From Sipunculus nudus (taxonomy: Eukaryota > Annelida > Sipuncula > Golfingiida > Sipunculidae), in contig CM049310.1 of assembly GCA_026874595.1 (NCBI GenBank), positions 88,791,556 through 88,855,555 on the forward strand: a stretch of 64,000 nucleotides of DNA, read 5' to 3'. The position numbers were made by a program, and so were the translations under genes. This document shows positions 3,449-63,390 of this stretch, piece by piece. Under the pieces are notes generated by a model that worked only from the letters and a program-made list of their open reading frames with translations, did not search any database and was not told where the DNA came from. Numbering within the stretch: the stretch's first letter is position 1; each line of letters starts with the position of its first letter.

Positions 3449-6400
3449 CTATCTCCTGGTATATATTTTAGATTCTGCTTCCTAATATTTCTTTCTGTCT
3501 CTACCTCCTGATATTTCTTTCTGTCTCTCCCACCTAATATTTCTTTTTGTCTCTACCACCTGATATTTCTTTCTGTCTCTCCCTCCTGATTTTTCTTTCT
3601 GTCTCTACCTCCTAATATTTCTTTCTGTCTCTACCCCTGATATTTCTTTCTGTCTCTACCTCCTAATATTTCTTTCTGCCTCTACCCTCTGATATTTCTT
3701 TCCCTTTCTACCACCTGATATTTCTTTCTGTCTCTACCACCTGATATTTCTTTCTGTCTCTACCACCTGATATTTCTTTCTGTCTCTACCCCCTGATATT
3801 TCTTTCCCTCTCTACCACCTGATATTTCTTTCTGTCGCTACCACCTGATATTTCTTTCCCTCTCTACCACCTGATATTTCTTTCTGTCTCTACCACCTGA
3901 TATTTCTTTCCCTCTCTACCACCTGATATTTCTTTCTGTCTCTACCACCTGATATTTCTTTCCCTCTCTACCACCTGATATTTCTTTCTGACTTTACCTC
4001 CTGATATTCTTTCATTCTCTACCACCTGATATTTCTTTCTGTCTCTACCACCTGATATTTCTTTCTGACTTTACCTCCTGATATTTCTTTCCCTCTCTAC
4101 CACCTGATATTTCTTTCTGTCTCTACCACCTGATATTTCTTTCCCTCTCTACTACCTGATATTTCTTTCTGTCTCTACCTCCTTATATTTCTTTCTGCCT
4201 CTACCCTCTGATATTTCTTTCCCTCTCTACCACCTGATATTTCTTCCTGTCTCTACCACCTGATATTTCTTTCTGTCTCTACCACCTGATATATCTTTCT
4301 GCCTCTACCTCTTGATATTTCTTTCCCTTTCTACCACCTGATATTTCTTTCTGTCTCTACCTCCTGGTATTTCTTTATGTCTCTTCCTCCTGATATTTCT
4401 TTCCCTCTCTACCTCCTGATATTTCTTTCCCTCTCTACCCCTGATATTTCTTTCTGTCTCTACCACCTGATATTTCTTTCTGTCAATACCCCAGATATTT
4501 CTTTTTGTCTCTACCACCTGATATTTCTTTCCCTCTCTACCCCTGATATTTCTTTCTGTCTCTACCTCCTGGTATTTCTTTATGTCTCTTCCTCCTGATA
4601 TTTCTTTCCCTGTCTACCTCCTGATATTTCTTTCCCTCTCTACTCCTGATATTTCTTTCTGTCTCTACCACCTGATATTTCTTTCTGTCTATACCCCTGA
4701 TATTTCTTTCTGTCTCTACCTTCTGACATTTCTTTCCCTCTCTACCCCTGATATTTCTTTCTGTCTCTACCTCCTGATATTTCTTTCTGTCTATACCCCC
4801 TGATATTTCTTTCTGTCTCTCCCACCTGTTATTTCTTTCTGTCTCTATCTCCTGGTATATATTTTAGATTCTGCTTCCTAATATTTCTTTCTGTCTCTAC
4901 CTCCTGATATTTCTTTCTGTCTCTCCCACCTAATATTTCTTTTTGTCTCTACCACATGATATTTCTTTCTGTCTCTCCCTCCTGATTTTTCTTTCTGTCT
5001 CTACCTCCTAATATTTCTTTCTGTCTCTACCCCTGATATTTCTTTCTGTCTCTACCTCCTAATATTTCTTTCTGCCTCTACCCTCTGATATTTCTTTCCC
5101 TCTCTACCACCTGATATTTCTTTCTGTCTCTACCACCTGATATTTCTTTCTGTCTCTACCACCTGATATTTCTTTCTGTCTCTACCCCCTGATATTTCTT
5201 TCCCTCTCTACCACCTGATATTTCTTTCTGTCTCTACCACCTGATATTTCTTTCCCTCTCTACCACCTGATATTTCTTTCTGTCTCTACCACCTGATATT
5301 TCTTTCCCTCTCTACCACCTGATATTTCTTTCTGTCTCTACCTCCTTATATTTCTTTCTGCCTCTACCCTCTGATATTTCTTTCCCTCTCTACCACCTGA
5401 TATTTCTTTCTGTCTCTACCTCCTGGTATTTCTTCATGTCTCTTCCTCCTGATATTTCTTTCCCTCTCTACCTCCTGATATTTCTTTCCCTCTCTACCCC
5501 TGATATTTCTATCTGTCTCTACCACCTGATATTTCTTTCTGTCTCTACCACCTGATATATCTTTCTGCCTCTACCTCTTGATATTTCTTTCCCTTTCTAC
5601 CACCTGATATTTCTTTCTGTCTCTACCTCCTGGTATTTCTTTATGTCTCTTCCTCCTGATATTTCTTTCCCTCTCTACCTCCTGATATTTCTTTCTGTCT
5701 CTACCACCTGATATTTCTTTCTGTCTCTACCACCTGATATTTCTTTCTGTCTCTACCACCTGATATTTCTTTCTGTCTCTACCACCTGATATTTCTTTCT
5801 GTCTCTACCACCTGATATTTCTTTCTGTCTCTACCACCTGATATTTCTTTCTGCCTCTACCCCCTGATATTTCTTTCCCTCTCTAGCCCCTGATATTTCT
5901 ATCTGCCTCTACCTCCTGATATTTCATTCTGTCTCTACCCCCTGATATTTCTTTCCCTCTCTAGCCCCTGATATTTTTCTCTGTCTCTACCACCTGATAT
6001 TTCTTTCTGTCTCTACCACCTGATATTTCTTTCTGTCTCTACCACCTGATATTTCTTTCCCTCTCTACCTTCTGACATTTCTTTCCCTCTCTACCCCTGA
6101 TATTTCTTTCTGTCTCTACCACCTAATATTTCTTTCTGTCCCTACCTCCTGATATTTCTTTCTGTCTATACCCCCTGATATTTCTTTCTGTCTCTCCCAC
6201 CTGTTATTTCTTTCTGTCTCTATCTCCTGGTATTTCTTTATGTCTCTTCCTCCTGATATTTCTTTCTGTCTCTACCTCCTGATATTTCTTTCTGTCTCTA
6301 CCACCTGATATTTCTTTCTGTCTCTACCACCTGATATTTCTTTCTGTCTCTACCACCTGATATTTCTTTCTGTCTCTACCTCCTGATATTTCTTTCCCTC

Positions 6401-8158
6401 TCTACCTTCTGACATTTCTTTCCCTCTCTACCCCTGATATTTCTTTCTGTCTCTACCACCTAATATTTCTTTCTGTCTCTACCTCCTGATATTTCTTTCT
6501 GTCTATACCCCCTGATATTTCTTTCTGTCTCTCCCACGTGTTATTTCTTTCTGTCTCTATCTCCTGGTATATATTTTAGATTCTGCTTCCTAATATTTCT
6601 TTCTGTCTCTACCTCCTGATATTTCTTTCTGTCTCTCCCACCTAATATTTCTTTTTGTCTCTACCACCTGATATTTCTTTCTGTCTCTCCCTCCTGATTT
6701 TTCTTTCTGTCTCTACCTCCTAATATTTCTTTCTGTCTCTACCCCTGATATTTCTTTCTGTCTCTACCTCCTAATATTTCTTTCTGCCTCTACCCTCTGA
6801 TATTTCTTTCCCTTTCTACCACCTGATATTTCTTTCTGTCTCTACCACCTGATATTTCTTTCTGTCTCTACCACCTGATATTTCTTTCTGTCTCTACCCC
6901 CTGATATTTCTTTCCCTCTCTACCACCTGATATTTCTTTCTGTCTCTACCACCTGATATTTCTTTCCCTCTCTACCACCTGATATTTCTTTCTGTCTCTA
7001 CCACCTGATATTTCTTTCCCTCTCTACCACCTGATATTTCTTTCTGTCTCTACCACCTGATATTTCTTTCCCTCTCTACCACCTGATATTTCTTTCTGAC
7101 TTTACCTCCTGATATTTCTTTCCCTCTCTACCACCTGATATTTCTTTCTGTCTCTACCACCTGATATTTCTTTCTGACTTACCTCCTGATATTTCTTTCC
7201 CTCTCTACCACCTGATATTTCTTTCTGTCTCTACCACCTGATATTTCTTTCCCTCTCTACCACCTGATATTTCTTTCTGTCTCTACCTCCTTATATTTCT
7301 TTCTGCCTCTACCCTCTGATATTTCTTTCCCTCTCTACCCCCTGATATTTCTTCCTGTCTCTACCACCTGATATTTCTTTCTGTCTCTACCACCTGATAT
7401 ATCTTTCTGCCTCTACCTCTTGATATTTCTTTCCCTTTCTACCACCTGATATTTCTTTCTGTCTCTACCTCCTGGTATTTCTTTATGTCTCTTCCTCCTG
7501 ATATTTCTTTCCCTCTCTACCTCCTGATATTTCTTTCCCTCTCTACCCCTGATATTTCTTTCTGTCTCTACCACCTGATATTTCTTTCTGTCTATACCCC
7601 AGATATTTCTTTTTGTCTCTACCACCTGATATTTCTTTCCCTCTCTACCCCTGATATTTCTTTCTGTCTCTACCTCCTGGTATTTCTTTATGTCTCTTCC
7701 TCCTGATATTTCTTTCCCTCTCTACCTCCTGATATATCTTTCCCTCTCTACCCCTGATATTTCTTTCTGTCTCTACCACCTGATATTTCTTTCTGTCTAT
7801 ACCCCTGATATTTCTTTCTGTCTCTACCTTCTGACATTTCTTTCCCTCTCTACCCCTGATATTTCTTCCTGTCTCTACCTCCTGATATTTCTTTCTGTCT
7901 ATACCCCCTGATATTTCTTTCTGTCTCTCCCACCTGTTATTTCTTCCTGTCTCTATCTCCTGGTATATATTTTAGATTCTGCTTCCTAATATTTCTTTCT
8001 GTCTCTACCTCCTGATATTTCTTTCTGTCTCTCCCACCTAATATTTCTTTTTGTCTCTACCACCTGATATTTCTTTCTGTCTCTCCCTCCTGATTTTTCT
8101 TTCTGTCTCTACCTCCTAATATTTCTTTCTGTCTCTACCCCTGATATTTCTTTCTGTC
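3449..8158. repeat. Higher-order tandem duplication, offset 3,108 bp
   Basis: Within the minisatellite, landmark variants at 3,449, 4,845 and in between recur at 6,557 and 7,953, all with the same 3,108-bp offset. The rare landmark is CTATCTCCTGGTATATATTT followed by TAGATTCTGCTTCC. Intervening unit variants match in order, so this is a segmental duplication of about 120 units. The match weakens near 8,158, where the later copy lacks two units. Confidence 0.85.
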
Positions 8159-11100
8159 TCTACCCCCTGATATTTCTTTCCCTCTCTACCACCTGATATT
8201 TCTTTCTGTCTCTACCACCTGATATTTCTTTCTGTCTCTACCACCTGATATTTCTTTCTGTCTCTACCACCTGATTTTTCTTTCTGTCTCTACCTCCTGA
8301 TATTTCTTTCTGTCTCTACCACCTGATATTTCTTTCTGTCTCTACCACCTGATATTTCTTTCTGTCTCTACCCCCTGATATTTCTTTCCCTCTCTACCAC
8401 CTGATATTTCTTTCTGTCTCTACCACCTGATATTTCTTTCCCTCTCTACCACCTGATATTTCTTTCTGTCTCTACCTCCTTATATTTCTTTCTGCCTCTA
8501 CCCTCTGCTATTTCTTTCCCTCTCTACCACCTGATATTTCTTTCTGTCTCTACCTCCTGGTATTTCTTCAGGTCTCTTCCTCCTGATATTTCTTTCCCTC
8601 TCTACCTCCTGATATTTCTTTCCCTCTCTACCCCTGATATTTCTTTCTGTCTCTACCACCTGATATTTCTTTCTGTCTCTACCACCTGATATATCTTTCT
8701 GCCTCTACCTCTTGATATTTCTTTCCCTTTCTACCTCTTGATATTTCTTTCCCTTTCTACCACCTGATATTTCTTTCTGTCTCTACCTCCTGGTATTTCT
8801 TTATGTCTCTTCCTCCTGATATTTCTTTCCCTCTCTACCTCCTGATATTTCTTTCCCTCTCTACCCCTGATATTTCTTTCTGTCTCTACCACCTGATATT
8901 TCTTTCTGTCTATACCCCAGATATTTCTTTTTGTCTCTACCACCTGATATTTCTTTCCCTCTCTACCCCTGATATTTCTTTCTGTCTCTACCTCCTGGTA
9001 TTTCTTTATGTCTCTTCCTCCTGATATTTCTTTCCCTCTCTACCTCCTGATATTTCTTTCCCTCTCTACCCCTGATATTTCTTTCTGTCTCTACCACCTG
9101 ATATTTCTTTCTGTCTATACCCCTGATATTTCTTTCTGTCTCTACCTTCTGACATTTCTTTCCCTCTCTACCCCTGATATTTCTTTCTGTCTCTACCTCC
9201 TGATATTTCTTTCTGTCTATACCCCCTGATATTTCTTTCTGTCTCTCCCACCTGTTATTTCTTTCTGTCTCTATCTCCTGGTATATATTTTAGATTCTGC
9301 TTCCTAATATTTCTTTCTGTCTCTACCTCCTGATATTTCTTTCTGTCTCTCCCACCTAATATTTCTTTTTGTCTCTACCACCTGATATTTCTTTCTGTCT
9401 CTCCCTCCTGATTTTTTTTTCTGTCTCTACCTCCTAATATTTCTTTCTGTCTCTACCCCTGATATTTCTTTCTGTCTCTACCCCCTGATATTTCTTTCCC
9501 TCTCTACCACCTGATATTTCTTTCTGTCTCTACCACCTGATATTTCTTTCTGTCTCTACCACCTGATATTTCTTTCCCTCTCTACCTCCTGATATTTCTT
9601 TCCCTCTCTACCCCTGATATTTCTTTCTGTCTCTACCACCTGATATTTCTTTCTGTCTATACCCCTGATATTTCTTTCTGTCTCTACCTTCTGACATTTC
9701 TTTCCCTCTCTACCCCTGATATTTCTTTCTGTCTCTACCTCCTGATATTTCTTTCTGTCTATACCCCCTGATATTTCTTTCTGTCTCTCCCACCTGTTAT
9801 TTCTTTCTGTCTCTATCTCCTGGTATATATTTTAGATTCTGCTTCCTAATATTTCTTTCTGTCTCTACCCCTGATATTTCTTTCTGTCTTTACCCCCTGA
9901 TATTTCTTTCCCTCTCTACCACCTGATATTTCTTTCTGTCTCTACCACCTGATATTTCTTTCTGTCTCTACCACCTGATATTTCTTTCTGTCTCTACCAC
10001 CTGATATTTCTTTCTGTCTCTACCTCCTGATATTTCTTTCTGTCTCTACCACCTGATATTTCTTTCTGTCTCTACCACCTGATATTTCTTTCTGTCTCTA
10101 CCCCCTGATATTTCTTTCCCTCTCTACCACCTGATATTTCTTTCTGTCTCTACCACCTGATATTTCTTTCCCTCTCTACCACCTGATATTTCTTTCTGTC
10201 TCTACCTCCTTATATTTCTTTCTGCCTCTACCCTCTGCTATTTCTTTCCCTCTCTACCACCTGATATTTCTTTCTGTCTCTACCTCCTGGTATTTCTTCA
10301 GGTCTCTTCCTCCTGATATTTCTTTCCCTCTCTACCTCCTGATATTTCTTTCCCTCTCTACCCCTGATATTTCTTTCTGTCTCTACCACCTGATATTTCT
10401 TTCTGTCTCTACCACCTGATATATCTTTCTGCCTCTACCTCTTGATATTTCTTTCCCTTTCTACCTCTTGATATTTCTTTCCCTTTCTACCACCTGATAT
10501 TTCTTTCTGTCTCTACCTCCTGGTATTTCTTTATGTCTCTTCCTCCTGATATTTCTTTCCCTCTCTACCTCCTGATATTTCTTTCCCTCTCTACCCCTGA
10601 TATTTCTTTCTGTCTCTACCACCTGATATTTCTTTCTGTCTATACCCCAGATATTTCTTTTTGTCTCTACCACCTGATATTTCTTTCCCTCTCTACCCCT
10701 GATATTTCTTTCTGTCTCTACCTCCTGGTATTTCTTTATGTCTCTTCCTCCTGATATTTCTTTCCCTCTCTACCTCCTGATATTTCTTTCCCTCTCTACC
10801 CCTGATATTTCTTTCTGTCTCTACCACCTGATATTTCTTTCTGTCTATACCCCTGATATTTCTTTCTGTCTCTACCTTCTGACATTTCTTTCCCTCTCTA
10901 CCCCTGATATTTCTTTCTGTCTCTACCTCCTGATATTTCTTTCTGTCTATACCCCCTGATATTTCTTTCTGTCTCTCCCACCTGTTATTTCTTTCTGTCT
11001 CTATCTCCTGGTATATATTTTAGATTCTGCTTCCTAATATTTCTTTCTGTCTCTACCTCCTGATATTTCTTTCTGTCTCTCCCACCTAATATTTCTTTTT

Positions 11101-11230
11101 GTCTCTACCACCTGATATTTCTTTCTGTCTCTCCCTCCTGATTTTTCTTTCTGTCTCTACCTCCTAATATTTCTTTCTGTCTCTACCCCTGATATTTCTT
11201 TCTGTCTCTACCCCCTGATATTTCTTTCCC
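8158..11230. repeat. Higher-order tandem duplication, offset 1,730 bp
   Basis: The run of unit variants from about 8,158 to 9,500 is repeated from about 9,888 to 11,230. Both copies share a diagnostic doubled CCTCTTGATATTTC unit (8,708 and 8,734 versus 10,438 and 10,464), and the landmark moves from 9,271 to 11,001. An extra landmark at 9,813 sits between them. Confidence 0.8.
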
Positions 11231-12741
11231 TCTCTACCACCTGATATTTCTTTCTGTCTCTACCACCTGATATTTCTTTCTGTCTCTACCACCTGATATT
11301 TCTTTCTGTCTCTACCACCTGATATTTCTTTCTGTCTCTACCTCCTGATATTTCTTTCTGTCTCTACCACCTGATATTTCTTTCTGTCTCTACCACCTGA
11401 TATTTCTTTCTGTCTCTACCCCCTGATATTTCTTTCCCTCTCTACCACCTGATATTTCTTTCTGTCTCTACCACCTGATATTTCTTTCCCTCTCCACCAC
11501 CTGATATTTCTTTCTGTCTCTACCTCCTGATATTTCTTTCTGCCTCTACCCTCTGCTATTTCTTTCCCTCTCTACCACCTGATATTTCTTTCTGTCTCTA
11601 CCTTCTGGTATTTCTTCAGGTCTCTTCCTCCTGATATTTCTTTCCCTCTCTACCTCCTGATATTTCTTTCCCTCTCTACACCTGATATTTCTTTCTGTCT
11701 CTACCACCTGATATATCTTTCTGCCTCTACCTCTTGATATTTCTTTCCCTTTCTACCACCTGATATTTCTTTCTGTCTCTACCACCTGATATTTCTTTCT
11801 GTCTCTACCACCTGATATTTCTTTCTGTCTCTACCACCTGATATTTCTTTCTGCCTCTACCCCCTGATATTTCTTTCCCTCTCTAGCCCCTGATATTTCT
11901 ATCTGCCTCTACCTCCTGATATTTCATTCTGTCTCTATCCCCTGATATTTCTTTCCCTCTCTAGCCCCTGATATTTCTCTCTGTCTCTACCACCTGATAT
12001 TTCTTTCTGTCTCTACCACCTGATATTTCTTTCTGTCTCTATCACCTGATATTTCTTTCCTTCTCTATCACCTGATATTTTTTTCTGTCTATACCTCCTG
12101 ATATTTCTTTCTCTCTCTACCACCTGATATTTCTTTTTTGTCTCTACCTCCTGATATTTCTTTCTGTCCCTACCACCTGATATTTCTTTCTGTCTCTACC
12201 TCGTGATATTTCTTTTTTGTCTCTACCACCTGATATTTCTTTCTGTCTCTACCTCCTGATATTTCTTTCTGTCTCTACCACCTGATATTTCTTTCTGTCT
12301 CTACCTCCTGATATTTCCTTCTGTCTCTACCACCTGATATTTCTTTCTGTCTCTACCACCTGATATTTCTTTCTGTCTCTACCTCCTGATATTTCTTTCT
12401 GTCTCCACCACCTGATATTTCTTTCTGTCTCTACCTCCTGATATTTCTTTCTGTCTCTACCACCTGATATTTCTTTCTGTCTCTACCTCCTGATATTTCT
12501 TTCTGTCTCTACCACCTGATATTTCTTTCTGTCTCTACCTCCTTATATTTCTTTCTGTCTCTACCACCTGATATTTCTTTCTGTCTCTACCTCCTGATAT
12601 TTCTTTCCCTCTCTACCTTCTGACATTTCTTTCCCTCTCTACCCCTGATATTTCTTTTTGTCTCTACCTCCTGATATTTCTTTCTGTCTATACCCCCTGA
12701 TATTTCTTTCTGTCTCTCCCACCTGTTATTTCTTTCTGTCT

Positions 12742-15700
12742 CTATCTCCTGGTATATATTTTAGATTCTGCTTCCTAATATTTCTTTCTGTCTCTACCTC
12801 CTGATATTTCTTTCTGTCTCTCCCACCTAATATTTCTTTCTGTCTCTACCACCTGATATTTCTTTCTGTCTCTACCTCCTAATATTTCTTTCTGTCTCTA
12901 CCATCTGATATTTCTTTCTGCCTCTACCCTCTGATATTTCTTGCCCTTTCTATCACCTGATATTTCTTTCTGTCTCTACCACCTGATATTTCTTTCGTTC
13001 TCTACCTAATGATATTTCTTTCTGTCTCTACCACCTGATATTTCTTTCTTTCTCTACCACCTGATATTTCTTTCTGTCTCTACCACCTGATATTTCTTTC
13101 TGTCTCTACCTCCTGATATTTCTTTCCCTCTCTACCTTCTGACATTTCTTTCCCTCTCTACCCCTGATATTTCCTTCTGTCTCTACCTACTGATATTTCT
13201 TTCTGTCTATACCCCCTGATATTTCTTTCTGTCTCTCCCACGTGTTATTTCTTTCTGTCTCTATCTCCTGGTATATATTTTAGATTCTGCTTCCTAATAT
13301 TTCTTTCTGTCCCTACCTCCTGATATTTCTTTCTGTCTCTCCCACCTAATATTTCTTTTTGTCTCTACCACCTGATATTTCTTTCTGTCTCTCCCTCCTG
13401 ATTTTTCTTTCTGTGTCTACCTCCTAATATTTCTTTCTGTCTCTACCCCTGATATTTCTTTCTGTCTCTACCTCCTAATATTTCTTTCTGCCTCTACCCT
13501 CTGATATTTCTTTCCCTTTCTACCACCTGATATTTCTTTCTGTCTCTACCACCTGATATTTCTTTCTGTTTCTACCCCCTGATATTTCTTTCCCTCTCTA
13601 CCACCTGATATTTCTTTCTGTCTCTACCACCTGATATTTCTTTCCCTCTCTACCACCTGATATTTCTTTCTGTCTCTACCACCTGATATTTCTTTCCCTC
13701 TCTACCACCTGATATTTCTTTCTTTGTCTACCACCTGATATTTCTTTCCCTCTCTACCACCTGATATTTCTTTCTGACTTTACCTCCTGATATTTCTTTC
13801 CCTCTCTACCACCTGATATTTCTTTCTGTCTCTACCACCTGATATTTCTTTCTGACTTTACCTCCTGATATTTCTTTCCCTCTCTACCACCTGATATTTC
13901 TTTCTGTCTCTACCACCTGATATTTCTTTCCCTCTCTACCACCTGATATTTCTTTCTGTCTCTACCTCCTTATATTTCTTTCTGCCTCTACCCTCTGATA
14001 TTTCTTTCCCTCTCTACCACCTGATATTTCTTCCTGTCTCTACCACCTGATATTTCTTTCTGTCTCTACCACCTGATATATCTTTCTGCCTCTACCTCTT
14101 GATATTTCTTTCCCTTTCTACCACCTGATATTTCTTTCTGTCTCTACCTCCTGGTATTTCTTTATGTCTCTTCCTCCTGATATTTCTTTCCCTCTCTACC
14201 TCCTGATATTTCTTTCCCTCTCTACCCCTGATATTTCTTTCTGTCTCTACCACCTGATATTTCTTTCTGTCTATACCCCTGATATTTCTTTTTGTCTCTA
14301 CCACCTGATATTTCTTTCCCTCTCTACCCCTGATATTTCTTTCTGTCTCTACCTCCTGGTATTTCTTTATGTCTCTTCCTCCTGATATTTCTTTCCCTCT
14401 CTACCTCCTGATATTTCTTTCCCTCTCTACCCCTGATATTTCTTTCTGTCTCTCCCACCTGATATTTCTTTCTGTCTATACCCCTGATATTTCTTTCTGT
14501 CTCTACCTTCTGACATTTCTTTCCCTCTCTACCCCTGATATTTCTTTCTGTCTCTACCTCCTGATATTTCTTTCTGTCTATACCCCCTGATATTTCTTTC
14601 TGTCTCTCCCACCTGTTATTTCTTTCTGTCTCTATCTCCTGGTATATATTTTAGATTCTGCTTCCTAATATTTCTTTCTGTCTCTACCACCTGATATTTC
14701 TTTCTGTCTCTACCTCCTAATATTTCTTTCTGTCTCTACCATCTGATATTTCTTCCTGCCTCTACCCTCTGATATTTCTTTCCCTTTCTATCACCTGATA
14801 TTTCTTTCTGTCTCTACCACCTGATATTTCTTTCTGTCTCTACCACCTGATATTTCTTTCTGTCTCTACCTCCTGATATTTCTTTCTGTCTCTACCACCT
14901 GATATTTCTTTCTGTCTCTACCACCTGATATTTCTTTCTGTCTCTACCACCTGATATTTCTTTCTGTCTCTACCTCCTAATATTTCTTTCCCTCTCTACA
15001 TTCTGACATTTCTTTCCCTCTCTACCCCTGATATTTCTTTCTGTCTCTCCCACCTAATATTTCTTTTTGTCTCTACCACCTGATATTTCTTTCTGTCTCT
15101 CCCTCCTGATTTTTCTTTCTGTCTCTACCTCCTAATATTTCTTTCTGTCTCTACCCCTGATATTTCTTTCTGTCTCTACCCCCTGATATTTCTTTCCCTC
15201 TCTACCACCTGATATTTCTTTCTGTCTCTACCACCTGATATTTCTTTCTGTCTCTACCACCTGATATTTCTTTCTGTCTCTACCACCTGATATTTCTTTC
15301 TGTCTCTACCTCCTGATATTTCTTTCGGTCTCTACCACCTGATATTTCTTTCTGTCTCTACCACCTGATATTTCTTTCTGTCTCTACCCCCTGATATTTC
15401 TTTCCCTCTCTACCACCTGATATTTCTTTCTGTCTCTACCACCTGATATTTCTTTCCCTCTCTACCACCTGATATTTCTTTCTGTCTCTACCTCCTGATA
15501 TTTCTTTCTGTCTCTACCACCTGATATTTCTTTCTGTCTCTACCTCCTGATATTTCTTTCTGTCTCTACCACCTGATATTTCTTTCTGTCTCTACCTCCT
15601 GATATTTCTTTCTGTCTCTACCACCTGATATTTCTTTCTGTCTCTACCTCCTGATATTTCTTTCCCTCTCTACCTTCTGACTTTTCTTTCCCTCTCTACC

Positions 15701-17727
15701 CCTGATATTTCTTTTTGTCTCTACCTCCTGATATTTCTTTCTGTCTATACCCCCTGATATTTCTTTCTGTCTCTCCCACCTGTTATTTCTTTCTGTCTCT
15801 ATCTCCTGGTATATATTTTAGATTCTGCTTCCTAATATTTCTTTCTGTCTCTACCTCCTGATATTTCTTTCTGTCTCTCCCACCTAATATTTCTTTCTGT
15901 CTCTACCACCTGATATTTCTTTCTGTCTCTACCTCCTAATATTTCTTTCTGTCTCTACCATCTGATATTTCTTTCTGCCTCTACCCTCTGATATTTCTTT
16001 CCCTTTCTATCACCTGATATTTCTTTCTGTCTCTACCACCTGATATTTCTTTCTGTCTCTACCTCCTGATATTTCTTTCTGTCTCTACCACCTGATATTT
16101 CTTTCTGTCTCTACCATCTGATATTTCTTTCTGTCTCTACCACCTGATATTTCTTTCTGTCTCTACCTCCTGATATTTCTTTCCCTCTCTACCTTCTGAC
16201 ATTTCTTTCCCTCTCTACCCCTGATATTTCTTTCTGTCTCTACCTACTGATATTTCTTTCTGTCTATACCCCCTGATATTTCTTTCTGTCTCTCCCACCT
16301 GTTATTTCTTTCTGTCTCTATCTCCTGGTATATATTTTAGATTCTGCTTCCTAATATTTCTTTCTGTCTCTACCTCCTGATATTTCTTTCTGTCTCTCCC
16401 ACCTAATATTTCTTTTTGTCTCTACCACCTGATATTTCTTTCTGTCTCTCCCTCCTGATTTTTCTTTCTGTCTCTACCTCCTAATATTTCTTTCTGTCTC
16501 TACCCCTGATATTTCTTTCTGTCTCTACCTCCTAATATTTCTTTCTGCCTCTACCCTCTGATATTTCTTTCCCTTTCTACCACCTGATATTTCTTTCTGT
16601 CTCTACCACCTGATATTTCTTTTTGTCTCTACCCCCTGATATTTCTTTCCCTCTCTACCACCTGATATTTCTTTCTGTCTCTACCACCTGATATTTCTTT
16701 CCCTCTCTACCACCTGATATTTCTTTCTGTCTCTACCACCTGATATTTCTTTCCCTCTCTACCACCTGATATTTCTTTCTGTCTCTACCACCTGATATTT
16801 CTTTCCCTCTCTACCACCTGATATTTCTTTCTGACTTTACCTCCTGATATTTCTTTCCCTCTCTACCACCTGATATTTCTTTCTGTCTCTACCACCTGAT
16901 ATTTCTTTCTGACTTGACCTCCTTATATTTCTTTCCCTCTCTACCACCTGATATTTCTTTCTGTCTCTACCACCTGATATTTCTTTCCCTCTCTACCACC
17001 TGATATTTCTTTCTGTCTCTACCTCCTTATATTTCTTTCTGCCTCTACCCTCTGATATTTCTTTCCCTCTCTACCACCTGATATTTCTTCCTGTCTCTAC
17101 CACCTGATATTTCTTTCTGTCTCTACCACCTGATATATCTTTCTGCCTCTACCTCTTGATATTTCTTTCCCTTTCTACCACCTGATATTTCTTTCTGTCT
17201 CTACCTCCTGGTATTTCTTTATGTCTCTTCCTCCTGATATTTCTTTCCCTCTCTACCTCCTGATATTTCTTTCCCTCTCTACCCCTGATATTTCTTTCTG
17301 TCTCTACCACCTGATATTTCTTTCTGTCTATACCCCTGATATTTCTTTTTGTCTCTACCACCTGATATTTCTTTCCCTCTCTACCCCTGATATTTCTTTC
17401 TGTCTCTACCTCCTGGTATTTCTTTATGTCTCTTCCTCCTGATATTTCTTTCCCTCTCTACCTCCTGATATTTCTTTCCCTCTCTACCCCTGATATTTCT
17501 TTCTGTCTCTCCCACCTGATATTTCTTTCTGTCTATACCCCTGATATTTCTTTCTGTCTCTACCTTCTGACATTTCTTTCCCTCTCTACCCCTGATATTT
17601 CTTTCTGTCTCTACCTCCTGATATTTCTTTCTGTCTATACCCCCTGATATTTCTTTCTGTCTCTCCCACCTGTTATTTCTTTCTGTCTCTATCTCCTGGT
17701 ATATATTTTAGATTCTGCTTCCTAATA
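12742..17727. repeat. Higher-order tandem duplication, offset 3,057 bp
   Basis: Landmarks at 12,742, 13,261 and 14,632 recur at 15,799, 16,318 and 17,689, each exactly 3,057 bp later. The variant order between them is nearly the same in both copies, with scattered substitutions. Just after the last landmark pair the two sequences diverge, which marks the duplication edge. Confidence 0.87.
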
Positions 17728-19012
17728 TTTCTTTCTGTCTCTACCTCCTGATATTTCTTTCTGTCTCTCCCACCTAATATTTCTTTTTGTCTCTACCACC
17801 TGATATTTCTTTCTGTCTCTCCCTCCTGATTTTTCTTTCTGTCTCTACCTCCTAATATTTCTTTCTGTCTCTACCCCTGATATTTCTTTCTGTCTCTACC
17901 TCCTAATATTTTTTCTGCCTCTACCCTCTGATATTTCTTTCCCTCTCTACCACCTGATATTTCTTTCTGTCTCTACCACCTGATATTTCTTTCTGTCTCT
18001 ACCACCTGATATTTCTTTCTGTCTCTACCCCCTGATATTTCTTTCCCTCTCTACCACCTGATATTTCTTTCTGTCTCTACCACCTGATATTTCTTTCCCT
18101 CTCTACCACCTGATATTTCTTTCTGTCTCTACCTCCTTATATTTCTTTCCCTCTCTACCACCTGATATTTTTTTCTTTCTCTACCACCTGATATTTCTTT
18201 CCCTCTCTACCACCTGATATTTCTTTCTGTCTCTACCTCCTTATATTTCTTTCTGCCTCTAACCTCTGATATTTCTTTCCCTCTCTACCACCTGATATTT
18301 CTTTCTGTCTCTACCTCCTGGTATTTCTTTATGTCTCTACCACCTGATATTTCTTTCCCTCTCTACCTCCTGATATTTCTTTCCCTCTCTACCCCTGATA
18401 TTTCTTTCTGTCTCTACCACCTGATATTTCTTTCTGTCTCTACCCTCTGATATATCTTTCTGCCTCTACCTCTTGACATTTCTTTCCCTTTCTACCACCT
18501 GATATTTCTTTCTGTCTCTACCTCCTGGTATTTCTTTATGTCTCTTCCTCCTGATATTTCTTTCCCTCTCTACCTCCTGATATTTCTTTCCCTCTCTACC
18601 CCTGATATTTCTTTCTGTCTCTACCACCTGATATTTCTTTCTGTCTATACCCCCTGATATTTCTTTCTGTCTCTCCCAGCTGTTATTTCTTTCTGTCTCT
18701 ATCTCCTGGTACATAATTTAGATTCTGCTTCCTGATATTTTTCTCTGTCTCTACCTTCTGATATTTCTCTCTGTCTCTAACACCTAATATTTCTTTCTGT
18801 CTCTGCCACCTGATATTTCTTTCTGTCTCTACCACCTGATATTTCTTTCTGTCTCTCCCACCTAATATTTCCTTTTGTCTCTCCCACCTGATATTTCTTT
18901 CTGTCTCTCCCACCTGATATTTCTTTCTGTCTATACCACCTGATATTTCTTTCTGTCGATAGCTCCAGATATTTCTTTCTGTCTCTACCTTTTGACATCT
19001 CTCCACATCTAA

Positions 19013-31186: not shown

Positions 31187-31242
31187 CTGTATGTGTCATA
31201 AGAAAAGCGGTTTTGTTGGTAGGTACGTTGAAGCTGGGGTTG
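31187..31242 (-). pseudogene. Copy B, exon 3, 3' part
   Basis: Minus strand reads CAACCCCAGCTTCAACG, then ACCGCTTTTC and ACACATACAG before GTAAGT. This aligns with the intact exon from NPGFN to the GTYR donor. It lies beyond the foldback element that separates it from the rest of exon 3. Confidence 0.93.
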
Positions 31243-32428
31243 TAGGCCAGGAGATTTAGCCAGAAAGGTAAAAAAAAATTGCAACAGAATTTCTGTTTGC
31301 ACAATGCATTTTCGTAAGGTATGTAGTTTGACATACTAAATGTCTACCAAAATCAACTCATGGGAAATATGAATATTTTACGTTTTTCTTATACCAGGAG
31401 TCGCTATTTTTTTTTAAATTTAGAATTTGACATAAATTATATTACAAATCCTCATTTCCGTTACCCAAGTTCAACCACTGTACTAAAGTAAGCAAAACTA
31501 ATGGTATGATGACATTAGAAAACGAAAAGTGACAAATTAAATGTATTTTGGATACAAATATGATTTTTAGGTAATTTTTTCTTCATAAAATATTGCGTAT
31601 TTATAAGGTCACTTCACAGACTTCTCTCTCCTCACTTACATCCATGCACATATTGTTGTATGTTATACTTGGATACATTTGATAATTTCTTGGCTGTGTT
31701 GTAAAATAAATGTTGACAAAATATTTTTTATCTGTAGAGAGATATGACTGTTTTTGTACTTGAAGGTTACCCCTACCCCTTAGTGGTTAATAATGGTATA
31801 CAAGCATGTAAGTTGAGTTGCCAGTAAGGGGTACCTTTGAATGGTCTATTTTATAAGGTTTTTTAATGAATTTGTGATGGTAGGGGTCCACTGATACTTT
31901 TGAGTTGGGTTGTGCTCACGACGACCTCAGGCAACCTTTGTAATATGCAAATTAGGGCAGCCATTGGCGAAAATTCTATTTTCTTCGATATCTCCAGAAC
32001 TAACCATGATAATTGGTCGAATATTGTGTCTAGACCTAGGTTTTCATGGTCAAAGATTCCAATAAAACCATAATAGTAACGGTTAACTTCATATTTTAAA
32101 TTTTAATATGTAAATTAGGGCCGCCATTGAAAAACAGTCTGCTTTCCTCAATATCTGAAAGACTAACCATGATGATTGGCCGAAAATTGTGTCTAGACCT
32201 AGGTTTTCATGGCCAAAGATGCAAATGAAACCATATTAACAACGGTTAAGTTCATATTTTAAATTTTAATATGTAAATTAGAGCCGCCATTGATGAAAAG
32301 TCTACTTTCCTCAATATCTGGAAAACTAACCATGATAATTGGTCAAACATTCTGTCTAAACCTAGGTTTTCATGGTCAAATATTCAAACGAAACTATGTG
32401 AATAATGGGTTAACTGAAATTAGTTGTG
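31243..32428 (+). repeat. Foldback element, left inverted arm
   Basis: Pairs with the right arm along its length. Shared blocks include GTAAGGTATGTAGTTTGACA, GGTTACCCCTACCCCTTAG, GGTATACAAGCATGT, TGCCAGTAAGGGGTACC and GTGCTCACGACGACC. Near the outer end the left arm lacks about 12 bases present in the right arm. A partial second copy of an arm segment (GGTTACCCCTACCCC) lies just inside, at 32,440-32,545. Confidence 0.92.
31949..32428 (+). repeat. Internal tandem repeats of the left arm, about 164 bp
   Basis: Three copies start at the AATTAG(G/A)GC motif at 31,949, 32,113 and 32,276. Each carries CTAACCATGAT(A/G)ATTGG and CCTAGGTTTTCATGG. Three mirrored copies lie at about 34,735-35,215 in the right arm. 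Confidence 0.9.
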
Positions 32429-32545
32429 CTTTAAAAACAAATTTTGACGTAATACTTTATTTCTGTAGAGAGGTATTACCGCTTTTGTTTTTCAGGGTTA
32501 CCCCTACCCCCGAGTGGTTAATCATGGTATACGAGGATTAACGTC

Positions 32546-34037
32546 TCTACCTTTGAAGAAACGATGGCAAATATGCGATACAACCCTTGTGATTACACAT
32601 TTTGATGGCCATGCCCACTCTAGCTACTGTAGTACGTGTATCCATCAGTTTATAAGGTATTTAAGTGCCTTTTTAGAATAATTAAGTAGAAAATACCAGA
32701 GCATGTACGTGCTACGTCTGTTTTAGGTGTACATGCAGAAGCCAGAGTTAACACATTACCTCCCCCCCCCCCTATGGCCATCATATATTTAGATGGTGTA
32801 TTTTTTCAGCGGAACTTTTCAGCAGAAGTTTTTATTGCCTCTTCAAGAACTACTCATATTGTTTTTGGTGGAAGAATTTAAAATTTACAGCGACTGTTTC
32901 ATTTTTACAATAAAGTAATGTTTCATACATTGTATCTGCAAACAAATCTCTAAATAATTGTCCCTTATAAACTATTCTTGAGCAAAGCATGGTTGAAAAG
33001 ATTTCAGTATACTGCTGACTGATCTGACAATTATTTCTGAACCATGCAAAAATAATTATTTATCATTTGGTATTTTATTAGTACTTAGTATACTATATTT
33101 TGTATATATATCATTTATTCGAAAAAAGATGTGCTTTAAAACATAACTCTTTTTATCATAAAAATTCTCACATTTTCAGTATCAATAACCACAATGAATA
33201 TATTTCCAAACTGAATTGTTAACCATATGTTAGATCCCTGACGCGGGAACAAATGCAAACAGAATATGGTGGTGAATTGTCAAGAAAGGTGTCACTACCA
33301 AACTTTGTGTAGGTGAGAGTTTTTGCACAGAAAACTGTCAAACGTTAGGGAGGACTTACAGAAGTGTCAATTTAAATACAAAGCTCCTTTTTTAAAGCTG
33401 AATTGATATTAATAAGCCTCCCGTGCCCCACTACATAGTGTTTGATGACTAGATATCATTAACCAATCATATTCACTATTTTTACAAACATTTATATAAA
33501 ATGATTCGTTTGCTTCTATTAAATAACCTAGTTAATAGCAACTTCTGCCTTCTAAAATGGACTGAAGACACAATTCCTTTTCAATTTACATATGTAAACA
33601 TAAGGTATATCAATTTGCATGTAAATCAAAAGAGATGATATTGTTAATGAGGATAAATGCCTCAGAATATTTATTCCAGTGGATATGAACTGGTCCCTGT
33701 GGGATTGTTTTTTTAATATACTAAATGTCTAGCAGAAAAAGTATCCTTATGGCTAAAATGTGCTTACATCCTAATAATATTGTATAATACATTTATCTAT
33801 ATATCTTGACATACTCTCAGTATAACATATCTTGGCGAAGTTTAGTAGATAATCTGTAAAAAGGTATTTTATGTTCAGTGCTGGCACTCTGGATTTAATT
33901 GAAAAATGTATAAAATCTTACAAGAAAAAAGTATAACATTGTGGGGAAAAGTATGAAAAAGTACAATTCATTGCCAGATAGTGCAATTTTTGTACAATTT
34001 AACCACATGCGATACTTCTAAACAAGCTTAAGGTATG

Positions 34038-34081
<44 letters not shown>

Positions 34082-34740
34082 AGTATTCCATATAACCAGT
34101 GATTCTGTATAACATCTAGATCGCAGAAAAAAGTCATTGCTAATAAAATGGCATTATAATGAAATATTCACGGAACATATCTATTTAACTCAATTGGTTC
34201 AGGTAAACAACCTATAATCACCACTTAAAGATGATTATTTTAGAAAAAAGTATTGACCCCAGAAAAAGTATGAAAAAAAATATAAAAAGAGTCTTGCCTG
34301 AAAAAAAAGTATGATACTTAAAAAAAAAGTATAGAGTGGCAACACTGTTTAGAACAGAACCCCAAATAGAACCGTTACAGGAAATATTCATTGCCATTCG
34401 TGAAATATAGATACAAATGATTGATACACTATTCATTTTGACTCTATGTCATAGTATTAAGCATAGAACGTACACTCCATCTAACTCCTAGATTAATGCT
34501 AGTTCCTTAAACTGATCTTTGACCAAGAAATTTCAGGTTTAGCAAATATATTTGACCTTTTATCAATATTTTAAATATATACTGGATAAACTAGGTTTTA
34601 CGGCAATGACTACCGTAATTTGCATTTTCAAAATATAAAAAAAAAACTTAACATCAGGCTTTTGTTCCGATGATCTTTTAACAATCTTTGAAAATGAAAA
34701 CCTATGTCTAGATTCCATGTAATGCCATCCAAATTTGCAT
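32546..34740. other. Foldback element spacer, no gene
   Basis: AT-rich sequence with a (TA)n tract at 34,040-34,078 and an A/T-homopolymer-rich stretch at 34,240-34,335. No open frame of transposase size or motif is visible on either strand. Confidence 0.7.
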
Positions 34741-35942
34741 TCTAAATTTTAGTTAACCCATTGTTCACATGGTTTCATTTGAATCTTTGAACATGAAAAC
34801 CTAGGTTTAGACATAATGTTCAATCAATTACAATGGTTATTTTTTCAGATAATGTGGAAGGTAGATATTTCATCAATGGCGGCTCTAATTTACATATTAA
34901 AATTTAAAATATGAACTTAACCTTTGTTAATATGGTTTCATTTGAATCTTTGACCAAGAAAACATAGGTCTAGAAACAATGTTCGGCCAATTATCATGGT
35001 TAGTCTTTCAGATATTGAGGAAAGTTGGCTATTCTTCAATGGCGGCCCTAATTTACATATTAAAATTTAAAATATGAAGTTAACTTTACTATTATGGTTT
35101 TATTGGAATCTTTGACCATGAAAACCTAGGTCTAGACACAATATTCGACCAATTATCATGGTTAGTTTTTGAGATATCGAAGAAAATAGAATTTTCGCCA
35201 ATGGCGGCCCTAATTTGCATATTACACAAGTTGCCTAAGGTCGTCGTGAGCACAACCCAACTCAAAAGTATCAGTGGACCCCTACCATCACAAATTCATC
35301 AAATTCATTTAAAAACCTTATAATATAGACCATTCAAAGGTACCCCTTACTGGCAACTCAACTAACATGCTTGTATACCATTATTTATCACTAAGGGGTA
35401 GGGGTAACCTTCAAGTACAAAAGCAATCATATCTCTCTACAGTAACACAGTTTTTTTGTCAAAAAAAAATTTAAAACAAAGCCAAGAAATTATCAAATGT
35501 ATCCCAGTTTAACATACAACAATATGTGGAGGGATGTAAGGGATAAAAGAGAAGTCTGTAAAATGACCCTATAAATACGCTATTTTTATGAAGAAAAAAT
35601 CACCTAAAATAACATTTTTATCCAAAATACATATTTAATTTGGCACCTTTTAGTTTCTAATGTTATCAATCCAATAGTTTTGCTTACTTTAGCACCTTGG
35701 TTGGAACTGTTATTAATGAAATGAGAATCTGCAATGTCATTTATGTCAAAATCTAATATTTTAAAAAAATTACGACTCCGGGTTGAAGAAAAACGTAAAA
35801 TTTCATATTTCCCATCGGTTGATTTTGGTAGACTTTTAGTATGTCAAACTACATACCTTACGAAAATGCATTATGCAAAACAGAAATTCTGTTGCAATTT
35901 TTTTTACCTTTGGTCTTTATTCTGGCTAAATCTCCTGGCCTA
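34741..35942 (-). repeat. Foldback element, right inverted arm
   Basis: Reverse complement of the left arm, including the three 164-bp modules (GCGGC(T/C)CTAATTT at about 34,880, 35,040 and 35,205) and the outer TATGTCAAACTACATACCTT block. Confidence 0.92.
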
Positions 35943-36108
35943 TTGGCTCCGTACAAAGCCAAGTAAACGCCATTTTTCGGCCCATACCAGTAGAAGGCAA
36001 CCGGGTTCTTGTTGACTGCCTGGTCGAGGCAAGGTGAACCCACTTCTCATGTGAGTCACCATAAAGACGTACCGGGTCTCGTCAGAGAACAAGGGGTTAA
36101 TGTGTTTA
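35943..36108 (-). pseudogene. Copy B, exon 3, 5' part
   Basis: Minus strand reads ACCCCTTGTTCTCTGACGAG, then TATGGTGACTCACATGAG and GTCAACAAGAACCCGG, matching the PAPS-loop exon of the intact gene. The acceptor AG has become AA. TTGCCTCGACC against TTGCTCGGCC shows a 1-bp insertion that shifts the frame just after the loop. The Phe-Glu-Pro following the loop reads YGP. Exon sequence stops at the foldback element. Confidence 0.92.
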
Positions 36109-46246: not shown

Positions 46247-49200
46247 CAGTATATCGTGTGTGAGTGAATCCAGGAGCACCGATTGCCCATCATGAGGTAT
46301 ACCCAAAATCCGGCATCCTCCTTCTCTGAATCCTGCCTTCGCTTCCTCTTTCGCTGTGCTATCTACACCAAGATATTGCCATTTCAACTTCTTTTAAACT
46401 TGGACTCCAACAAACAAGGAATATGTAGTATTTAAATGTCGCCTGTCATTCCTTCTAAAAACTAAAAGAGAGATCTCACCTTGTTTCGCTATCAAATAAA
46501 GAAACAATTATAAGAAAAATACTTGGTTGTGACAATAAACTTCTTAAGCATGGGGAAGGCTGGGAAGTTTATAAGCGGAAGGGGTCGGGAGACTTTTGGA
46601 CCCTAGTTCGTAAGAATTAACTAAAGTCTGAATCATAGAAGCTAAATTTTTTTCTATTATAATGATGCTAAATTTACTTTTATTTTAGCATTATGTAAGA
46701 CTACAAGTATCTTAAGTCAGTTTGACATTGGTTCTCTATTATTGCGACACTCTAGAACGCCTTTGAACATATCCTGAAAAGCCAATAATACATTTAATGC
46801 TGGTTCATATGGATAACTGAGACATCTATTTCCGGAAATTTCTATTTCATCTGGATCATGTTAGCATATTATTTTAATTTGGCCATAAGCAAAACCATAT
46901 GCATTCTTGTAATAGTAATATATTAAATTCACACTCAAAACCAATGTAAAAAACTTAATGATTTTGGGGTTGATATATGCAGAATGGTCTATGCATAAAA
47001 GAAGCCAGGAGCCCGAAACGTTGGGTCAAACACGAGAGTACACTTCATCAATGCTACCTGGATTCGTGGAGAACACAATTCCGCAGCCAAAATACACGCT
47101 GAAAACGGATCACCAATATTTACTTCAATATCAGGTATATTTCAGTTGTCTATAAATTGTCATTTTTTGTGAGGTTAAGTTGCATTAATTATCGTACATA
47201 CTTAACTGGCGCATGAACAAATCTATGAACACGAATGATTATTAGCCATGACAACACGACTCAGTTGGCACTTGTATTAGGCTTGAAAGCCTAACTTGAG
47301 TCGTGGTAAATAACCCATAATCTTAACATTAGGCTACAAATGATGATTTAACACTAAAGAATACATGTCGACCAAAACTGAAACTCCGTCTCTATGGTAA
47401 CGAGTTATTTCCAGTATCGCGTACCAGTCACCCGTGCAGGGTTGCTTGCATTCATGCTGTCAGTAATTCAACTGACCTGCTAAGGATTTTACCAATATGT
47501 TGATTGAAACGGAATTTTCCTCGCTCAAATTTTGTTTGTTAAAAGGTCAGAAAGCGTTTTTTTAGGTTGAGTCATGGCGTCCAGAAACACAGTAATCAAC
47601 CATAATAAGCAAAGGTTACCTTCTGGTAAAAAATCACATGTCATTGAGAAAGACAATGTTCCATCATAGTATACATGAATAGATCTGTATACATAGTATA
47701 TTCAATGCAATGACAACATATCTACGGTATATGTATTCAGGATATCGAACAAAATTGTTTAGATTTAAATTATATCAAATTCAACTGTTTCACCTACGGG
47801 ATGGAGAACTATAAACAGAAGAGAATCTATAAAGACTCCTAGGCCTATATAAGATAATATATATAAATGATTTTGTCAGACTAAATTTGCCGTGTCTACT
47901 GTCTATCCCGTTGAGTCGGGTCTTTACCTGTATGCTCCCCGATTGTTGTCGGTCTACATGTTAAAAAAATAGGGAAACCTGTACAAAACTCAAGAAAAAA
48001 TGTCCAGTCGGCCGCAGTTCAGTCGTGTCGTGACGGTACGTGTATATGCGCTTCAATTGTGAAATTCTTACGACACACCAAAGACTGTCCTGTGAATTTT
48101 CCTTATTTTCTGTCGTGGACCTGTTGCATACCATGCATCAGTCTCAGGAAAGCCAACAGCCCTATTTAAGATGCTTACGATGCCCCACCCGTCGCAATCG
48201 GTGACCAGACAGATAAAGTCTTGAGAGTCGAGAAGACGGAATACTGGGTGGGGGCATATTCTGAAAAAAATATGCCGCTTCTCGGCTATGTTTCTAACTC
48301 GCATCCCCCGCCGGTGTTTTGAGCCCTGCGTTCTAGCAATAGACAAAAATGTCAATTTTTTTTACAGCCGAGCTGCAATCCATGTATTTAATGTAATGAA
48401 TTGATGTTAAATGTCCTTCTATTTAGAACCACAACAACCCCTTGTTCTCCGACAACGACACCCGGTACGTCTTAATGGTGACTCACATGAGAAGTGGGTC
48501 GACCTTGCTCGGCCAGGCAGTCAACAAGAACCCGGATGCCTTCTACTGGTTTGAGCCGATAGATGGCGTGTACGTCGCGATGTACGGAACCAACCCTGGC
48601 TTCAACGTTCCTTGCGACATAACCGCTTTTCCTAATGGCACATACAGGTCAGTCCTATTCAAATTCACAATTTTGTTCATTTATACATCAAGTGTTCTCA
48701 CTCTGCTGGTATTATTAATATTTATTTATAAGCAAAGACAATGAGTTGACACCAATATCGTGACCAGCTTAGATGTTTCATGTGCTCAGACGGCGTAATA
48801 CCCAGCCATTTTAAGAGCGTATGAATCGTGCTGAAATCTGCTGCTTAACTGTAACTGATGCCTGTTTTTTTTTGTTCGCCGTACATTAATTGTTTTGGAG
48901 CCAGCACAATCCCGCACATCAAACCATTACATCTATCGAGGCATGGAATATGATCTTATTTTACACATAGGCCTAATGTGGTGGAAAACATAAATACTTG
49001 CGGCTTGGTATCTCTACTCTATAGTTGGAAAACACAAGAAAAAAAAAGGGGGGGGGGGGGAGAGAGAGAGAAGAAATATATGTATAACGTACATGTAAAT
49101 TAAAAGAAATTGGCTCTCAATTTGAGAATATCCGTTGTGATAACAGAATTTAGTTTTTAGATTGTTCATAGATTTAAATAGATCAAAACAGCGTTAACCA

Positions 49201-56888: not shown

Positions 56889-57798
56889 TGTATAACCTTT
56901 TAACTTGCACTCTCAGCAAGCTACCAACTGAATTACTGCTACCTATACATTTGGGGTCCAAATAATGAACGATTCAGCCTTGGACCATACAGGGAGTGTT
57001 TAACAAAGCTCCAGATGCCAAATATATTAAAAAAAGTTTCAGGACAAAAACAATTTACTCAGACCCATTTAATCCTATTTCTGTACAAATGCTTGAATGC
57101 CATAAGTATCTTTAAAAAGAAGGAAACATGGACAGTCGCCAAGGATATCATATTATAGGTTTCAACAAAGGGAAGTATTTGATTTCAACAGAGGCTCAAC
57201 TAGAGCTTTATAAATGCTGTACAAATAAACTTCAAAAGCAAACTTTCAAGTGTTTATCATTTCTAGAACAGCTCTGTAAAAAGCCAAGAAATATTCGATC
57301 TACTAAATTAAAAAAAGTAACTTTCGATACAGCAGAGCTGTTGCTTAAAAGAATCCCTTGCCTCTTGGTCATCTATAATCTCCGCCATCCACTGGGGATC
57401 TCGGCATCCCGGACTTCCTTAATAACCAGATAAATCTAATTATACGCCGGAACTGACGTCACAAAAGAAGTTGCCCTGATATGCCAGACTATGTACGAAG
57501 ATTTGAAAACTTACATGCGCCTCGTGAAGACTTGTCCTGGCAGATTGCGTTGGGTTCGTATGAGCATTTTGCGTATAATTCTGAATGTGTTGTAAATTCT
57601 TTGTATCAACGTTTAGGTATGAAGACTCGCGAGGTGGTAAGAAAGTGGCTCTTAAAAAACATGAAACCAACATCGAAGGGACCGACACGGTGGCAAAGTA
57701 AAGTAAAACTCGGAGAATGTATTGAATATAAATAACAATGCGGACCTATAATGAAGGATTTAGACAAGATTGTTCCTTAGAGGGACAGTTAGGAGTAG
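56889..57798 (+). pseudogene. Copy C, exon 4 remnant
   Basis: Begins within the exon at ATAACCTTTTAAC and ends at the stop-equivalent TAG at 57,796-57,798. Recognisable pieces are GFNKGKYL, TAELLLKRIP, LLVIYNLRHPLGISASR (57,356-57,415), SYEHFAYNSECVVNSLYQRL and CGPIMKDLDKIVP. TAA follows HKYL at about 57,114, a frameshift and TAA break the frame after SASR, and TAA, TAG and TAG codons lie near the end. The Arg and Ser of the 3'-phosphate motif are still present. Confidence 0.92.
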
Positions 57799-62472: not shown

Positions 62473-63390
62473 AATAAGGTTTATAATATGAGCTTGATAT
62501 GTTGCTGAGCATCAAATATAGCTTTTTTCGACTGCAGATTTACCTTGAAGTTCAAGTTTGACACAGAAGCCCCATATATCGCCCACTAGGGGCAGACCTC
62601 CCGGCTTGAGCTTTTATCCCAATTCGGAACCACGCTACTCGGATTATTTTGGATTTTTATTTTCTATTTGTTAATTTTGTAATGATTTAGCATTTTAAGA
62701 CAGGATCTGGGAATGGCATTATCTTCATTATCATATTGACCCTCTGGCATTACGACCAGATTACTGGCGCCAGAGTGTCATGACATCTATGTCTGAGGAT
62801 CGCATTATAAGGCCTTATGAAGATGCAAATATTTTCGTCATTTCTGACAAAGCTTCATGGGCTACAGGTACACTGTCAATCAACATAAACTAGACCATTC
62901 GTTAGCATTTTTGTGTACTTTCTAATAATACCAAATATGAGCGAGAAAAGTTCCTGTTGAACCCAGCACATTTGTAAACCCCTCGGCATGTTTGTTGAAT
63001 TTATGACCGCATGAACACAAGCATGGCTCACACGGGTTACAGGACGCAGGCAACTTGCAGGCGACACAGGAAATGACCCGTGTCCATGGAGACGGTGTTT
63101 CAGTTTGGGTTGCGAGCTCCTATATATACTATTGTGTTTATTCACCATTCTAAGTATAATATTGAGATTATGGGCCGGTAACCACAATATGAATGCATCT
63201 AGATGCAAGACCACTGCGATACATTCCTGCATATTACTGGTATCACGACTCGAGTAGGCTTACCAGCCCAATTATCCGATTGCCTACTGAGTCGGGTTGT
63301 CTCGGCTAGATGTGCAGTGGACTTGGCCATGATCTTGAATTGCCGGCGATTCACTGATTTACACCGGGGGGGGGGGATGAAGCCAGCGGA
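62473..63390. other. No gene recognised
   Basis: The 118-codon minus-strand stretch at 62,876-63,232 has no family motif. Presumed intron of the GLYAT-like gene. Confidence 0.45.

Follow-up and report, generated by a model that had tools for sequence, protein, structure and literature searches.

Within a 64,000-nucleotide stretch of the Sipunculus nudus genome (the window hereafter; contig CM049310.1 of assembly GCA_026874595.1), the third exon of a sulfotransferase copy is interrupted by 4,700 bp of DNA that begins and ends with long inverted arms. The locus raises the question of what this insert is, namely whether it moved as a single unit and what kind of enzyme could have moved it. We conclude that it is very probably a copy of a non-autonomous, foldback-shaped family of cut-and-paste DNA transposons that is mobilised in trans with a 3-bp stagger. 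An interpretation made from the window alone (the sequence-only reading) had already proposed a foldback-type insertion, and the long module-bearing arms, the shared ends and the 3-bp duplications across copies bear this out. The family has the structure of foldback elements, i.e., a variable middle enclosed by long inverted repeats that contain tandem modules, as well as the features of the terminal inverted repeat (TIR) order, i.e., inverted ends and a fixed-length duplication at dispersed copies.

The state of the site before insertion can be read within the window itself. When the two flanks of the element are joined with one TTG, they align continuously to a paralog of the interrupted gene (paralog A, minus strand, 49016-48391) at 78% identity, and paralog A reads GGGTTGG at the insertion junction, with a single TTG and no TA. 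Because no TA is present at this junction, the target site duplication is TTG, found at both element ends as the sequence-only reading had it, and the terminal TA is part of the element; the alternative of TA as the duplicated target is rejected on the same grounds. The interrupted gene, copy B, is a pseudogene with exon 3 split by the element. The remnant of its exon 4 (26185-25490, minus strand) contains stops and frame breaks, and the flank alignment to paralog A, as we read it, reveals an insertion of one base and the loss of a splice acceptor AG. In paralog A, exon 3 and exon 4 have open frames, and exon 4 scores 29.9 bits against Sulfotransfer_3 (Pfam cut-off 27 bits). The flank alignment with a single TTG and the broken exon 4 thus agree with the earlier account of a pseudogene exon in two halves (Table 1) and an intact paralog that supplies the empty site. 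A third sulfotransferase copy, degraded by stops and a frame change, is located at 56891-57795 of the window.

The boundaries first proposed for the element are exact to the base. Its ends form a perfect 23-bp inverted pair, and among 200 order-1 resamples of the 6.7-kb region, in which inverted pairs spaced 1-6 kb apart were sought, none contained a pair of this length. The inverted arms, previously put at about 1.2 kb, align at 88.5% identity over 1,205 columns. Each arm contains three tandem modules, as had been claimed, but the unit is 163 bp long and not 164 bp; the right arm has further degenerate module pieces on its inner side. Three of the modules contain TAGGGCC, which resembles the terminal TAGGCC and may be taken as a hint only.

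Relatives of the element were sought in the 1.43-Gb assembly, where the window is G000:C5:88791556-88855555. The first 106 bp of the arm yielded at least 41 matches (best 40 of 257 candidates scored). The 23-base end with up to 3 mismatches had 92 matches, compared to 0 for the reversed control, so the ends of other genomic copies, on which the sequence-only reading depended, are indeed alike; a degenerate 17-mer of the end had 70 matches, compared to 2 for its reversed control. The three end searches merge to about 125 distinct listed positions, with 19 pairs less than 30 kb apart. This list includes at least one internal match (C11:76173537, query positions 28-103), a few others may be due to chance, and more diverged ends are absent from it. 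We read 30 copies covering 47 of the 125 positions: 21 two-ended copies, 685 to 7,329 bp in length, and nine one-ended copies (L016, L017, L020, L022, L023, L026, L027, L034 and L035). Short relatives of 685-1,658 bp carry the family ends and 3-bp duplications. Over 42 ends the terminal positions are near-invariant (C5 in 42/42, A7 in 42/42 and A2 in 41/42).

Do the two arms belong to one mobile unit? Inverted arms by themselves could arise from two separate insertions or from a local inversion, and separate insertions of the arms were what the sequence-only reading had named as fatal to its own interpretation. Three copies (L009, L010 and L012) are full-length siblings of the window copy, with both arms in the same layout, and the six pairs among these four copies are 96.3-97.2% identical. 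In the tree of their eight arms, where the support threshold is reached by 2 of the 5 inner branches and 2 are open, left and right arms are on opposite sides of one branch with 100/100 support. Left and right arms within one copy are 79-90% alike. The left arm of L010 is an outlier in the arm alignment, where it shares 84-87% with the remaining left arms; over the aligned bases of the full-length alignment its identity is 95-98%. Since the arms group by side, they had diverged before the subfamily spread, and they travel together. The whole unit therefore moved as one. The empty site with its single TTG, the siblings that share both arms and the middle, and the arm tree already refute an origin from two insertions or an inversion, which is almost certainly wrong.

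Duplication of 3 bp characterises the family as a whole, and the target has no fixed sequence. An exact 3-bp duplication flanks 18 of the 21 two-ended copies (TTG, CAT, CAC, GGG, TAT, AAA, TAT, TTA, CAG, GGG, TAT, TAA, AAG, GTA, AAA, TAG, CAA and GTA), so that the length seen at the window copy recurs in the comparison across copies; a 4-bp duplication was found in none of the 19 two-ended copies tested. The ends of some duplication-bearing copies are decayed (L013, L025 and L031 among others). L019 is flanked by ATA and AAA, and its paralogous empty site, which lies in a dispersed repeat found in the window, reads ATA. L014 is flanked by ATT and ATA, and another unit of its host repeat (L014 891-1362) reads CAATATTC, likewise with ATA; further units of this repeat in L018, L020 and L027 span the junction. 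Because both empty sites read ATA, these two misses look like one-base decay. Three empty sites are counted in all (window copy, L019 and L014). L018 was set aside as a further case, its joined flanks aligning at only 72% across 117 columns, with the junction itself gapped. Copies of the dispersed repeat are found in the window at 62927-63309, where the L019 empty site lies, and at 47535-47243.

In DDE transposition, fixed-length duplications arise from staggered strand transfer. For the present family we infer a transposase supplied in trans that would recognise the TAGGCCAGGAGATTTAG ends, excise the element and insert it at a target whose strands are cut 3 bp apart, after which gap repair at the target would produce the 3-bp duplication. 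The long arms and the 163-bp modules belong to the mobile unit, and the modules may add transposase binding sites, by analogy with Galileo, for which additional sites of this kind in the modules have been proposed (PMC4079207).

No recognisable coding sequence of the family is present in the copies read. No stop-to-stop frame in the window element reaches 100 amino acids (one of 92, starting in the left arm, is listed), and a six-frame Pfam scan of its middle returned two matches only, at E of 0.14 and 0.23. In the other copies, frame lengths and sequences were inspected, with a Pfam scan for a few. L029 (6,258 bp) has a different middle of 2.5 kb with no frame longer than 127 amino acids and no Pfam match at E up to 1, and the length of L014 (7,329 bp) and L018 (5,648 bp) is, by our reading, due to another repeat, of tandem structure, inside them. 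Larger frames in the vicinity of one-ended copies were considered as coding sequence of the family and rejected, being other genes or retroelements instead: Pfam matches identify Mab-21 (L016) and reverse transcriptase (L020), and our own reading alone suggests that a P450 lies next to L021 (a two-ended copy), that the L027 frame is a receptor and that the L034 frame is a Gypsy-like polyprotein. The L016 frame (6216-8501, plus strand) is open over 762 amino acids, contains Mab-21 nucleotidyltransferase domains (cGAS-like) and lies about 1.2 kb from a family end.

Profile searches of the genome yielded 26 DUF6589, one ISAzo13/Zator-type and five XPG_I matches; none of these 32 comes within 100 kb of any of the 125 listed ends, the closest being 179 kb away. 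The profile rve_3 (PF13683), a lead taken from the TA..TA ends of IS3EU, had at least 147 matches (best 150 of 2,794 candidates scored), many of them in frames of several hundred to more than 1,000 amino acids. One rve_3 match (C8:35279347-35279529) is located about 13.5 kb inside the family end C8:35292997, and the length of its frame, 1,154 amino acids, suggests a retroelement polyprotein. Of the eight strongest rve_3 matches, seven are on G000 contigs C106, C110, C118, C128, C134 and C135, six of the seven without internal stops; this set of contigs may represent bacterial contamination or symbiont sequence.

Several points weigh against the interpretation of a trans-mobilised transposon family. 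The full-length relative encoding a transposase that the sequence-only reading envisaged was not found among the 30 copies read (47 of the 125 listed ends). The family is sampled in part, with 78 of the 125 listed ends outside these copies, and the two-ended copies were selected for having two ends. L013, L014 and L025 have mutated ends, and their boundaries were set by consensus before the duplications were counted. The duplication GGG of L025 sits in a G run on its right side, which makes it weak and possibly due to chance, and L024, flanked by GGT and AGA, has no duplication and is unexplained.

Which superfamily could have supplied the enzyme? EnSpm/CACTA elements have termini CACT(A/G), and the family ends read TAGGCCAG, so this assignment is rejected. 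Duplications are given as TWA for PIF/Harbinger, CWG or ANT for NuwaI and Pangu, and a 2-bp AT for ISL2EU (PMC4482050). Among the 18 exact duplications TWA occurs twice (TTA and TAA), CWG once and ANT never, and the varied 3-bp duplications of the family, together with the window empty site GGGTTGG, do not agree with the AT of ISL2EU/ATon. The duplications reported elsewhere are 3 or 4 bp for AcademX, 9 or 10 bp for AcademH, 3 bp for Zator and usually 6 bp for IS3EU, which has TA..TA ends (PMC10045372), and 3 bp for Academ and 7-8 bp for P elements (PMC5199201). AcademH is thus excluded by length; IS3EU shares the TA..TA termini but not the usual 6-bp duplication; and a foldback element of the Mutator or P kind would have 7-10 bp, compared to 3 bp here and 4 bp in 0 of 19. 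AcademX and Zator fit the family by duplication length alone. We claim membership of no superfamily: the general kind is known, and the variant at hand, foldback with 3-bp duplications, is not placed.

A source transposase in the AcademX lineage, which would make the family a set of non-autonomous Academ elements, is the alternative that we regard as possible, although rather unlikely. The duplication length agrees with it (PMC10045372, PMC5199201), and a survey in which Academ ranks third among the richest DDE superfamilies (PMC10294476) would favour it further only if the host were a bivalve. Academ-type sequence is present in the genome, as locus L048 (G000:C3:42844757-42853136) encodes a 554-amino-acid DUF6589 protein (3414-5075, plus strand) with an adjoining Helicase_C frame (6882-7691, minus strand). 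We assume that DUF6589 marks Academ, and the helicase frame near the L048 match agrees with this assumption. L048 itself is taken as AcademH-like and would fit the helicase-encoding AcademH lineage, and there is no pair of family ends in the 8.4 kb around its DUF6589 protein. However, 0 of 26 DUF6589 and 0 of 5 XPG_I matches lie within 100 kb of the listed ends, unlisted diverged ends being possible, and no inverted pair of TAGGCCAGGAG (up to 2 mismatches) is found in eight short DUF6589 loci or in the larger L048 and L049; unpaired matches to it occur in four of the ten DUF6589 loci searched. The five XPG_I matches are presumably about as many as host repair genes alone would give, and we count this against AcademX as well. 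At another locus, L045, small inverted-repeat elements with GGCCAAA ends (about 1057-1392 and 2570-2850) are found on either side of a DUF6589 fragment. These lie between TAA and TTA and are a decoy rather than family members; we read them as probable miniature inverted-repeat transposable elements of PIF/Harbinger type, unrelated to the family.

A Zator source is improbable. Zator shares the 3-bp duplication (PMC10045372) and is represented in the genome by an ISAzo13-type transposase match in L047, but this match is the only one, is apparently a relic and is 4.9 Mb from the nearest listed end, and the 7.5 kb around it contain no inverted pair of TAGGCCAGGAG with up to 2 mismatches. We give the same small chance to an undescribed cut-and-paste superfamily that has TA..TA termini and whose 3-bp duplications lack a fixed sequence. 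This explanation gains from the exclusion of PIF/Harbinger, NuwaI, Pangu and ISL2EU by their duplications and of AcademH by length, and from the usually 6-bp duplications of IS3EU, which shares the TA..TA ends (PMC10045372). The missing transposase is nevertheless weak evidence for it, the two 3-bp superfamilies AcademX and Zator remain, and the separation from known superfamilies is made by their descriptions. An undescribed eukaryotic transposase lineage with TAGGCC..GGCCTA ends, duplication of any 3 bp and a foldback form that belongs to neither the Mutator nor the P superfamily is, in our estimate, no less doubtful. A literature search on TAGGCC termini of transposons gave ATon as the only related lead among the matches listed (Repbase and Dfam not covered).

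Tetris of Drosophila virilis (PMC4079207) shares with the present family long terminal inverted repeats that contain tandem repeats (~220 bp vs. 163 bp) and a middle without apparent coding capacity; likewise, no autonomous copy of it was found. It differs in duplications of 8-10 bp, its authors suggesting the Mutator superfamily, compared to 3 bp here, and in that its repeats also form kb-long satellite arrays, unlike our modules. Module runs in the 19 two-ended copies scanned comprise at most three modules and a partial one, and no longer runs were seen among the matches listed from a module search of the genome (at least 113 matches, best 40 of 515 candidates scored). Galileo has similarly long, internally repetitive inverted repeats that resemble Foldback, but its P-superfamily transposase is known, and P duplications are 7-8 bp (PMC5199201) rather than 3 bp. 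The likeness to the AcademX lineage is in the 3-bp duplication length, and the family has no linked transposase or XPG nuclease at the listed ends; with Zator it shares the 3-bp duplication, again without a linked transposase at those ends. ATon of Aedes aegypti (PMC3422177) is likewise non-autonomous, with terminal ATAGGCC and with no autonomous partner found; it differs in inserting at AT and in a length of 112-144 bp in the two families described, compared to insertion at any 3 bp with no TA at the empty site. The pearl elements of bivalves (PMC5139131) are also non-autonomous and modular with internal satellite-like repeats, whereas here the repeats are inside inverted arms, a comparison made by description only.

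The foldback elements compared here are tied to the Mutator superfamily (Tetris, with 8-10-bp duplications) or to the P superfamily (Galileo). That separate transposon lineages acquire foldback structure independently is an idea cited in PMC4079207, and the same architecture with a 3-bp duplication fits it. With their fixed ends and the three empty sites, the copies of the family offer a ready query for the source enzyme in related genomes.

Table 1. Coordinates of the element, its host exon, empty sites and a transposase match (window positions unless a locus is named)
Feature	Position	Strand	Evidence or remark
Whole inserted element, 4,700 bp	31243..35942	.	inverted ends; empty site in paralog; full-length siblings L009, L010, L012
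Left target site duplication TTG	31240..31242	.	
Right target site duplication TTG	35943..35945	.	
Left terminal inverted repeat, TAGGCCAGGAGATTTAGCCAGAA	31243..31265	+	23/23 complementary to right end
Right terminal inverted repeat	35920..35942	-	perfect 23-bp complement of left end
Left arm	31243..32421	+	88.5% identity to right arm
Right arm	34745..35942	-	aligned to left arm
Three tandem 163-bp modules, left arm	31938..32426	+	
Three tandem modules of 162-163 bp, right arm	34730..35217	-	
Middle region without recognisable coding sequence	32422..34744	.	frames and six-frame Pfam scan
Sulfotransferase copy B exon 3, upstream part	35943..36108	-	
Sulfotransferase copy B exon 3, downstream part	31187..31242	-	
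Single TTG of empty site, paralog A exon 3	48591..48593	-	read from flank alignment
Single ATA, paralogous empty site of sibling copy L019	63187..63189	+	read from flank alignment
ISAzo13/Zator-type transposase match	L047 (G000:C7:75734869-75742402) 3279-4061	-	sole such match in genome search

Elsewhere in the window, a 26-bp unit repeated in tandem about 733 times occupies positions 1-18989, and its strand asymmetry is very strong (GC skew of about -0.65).

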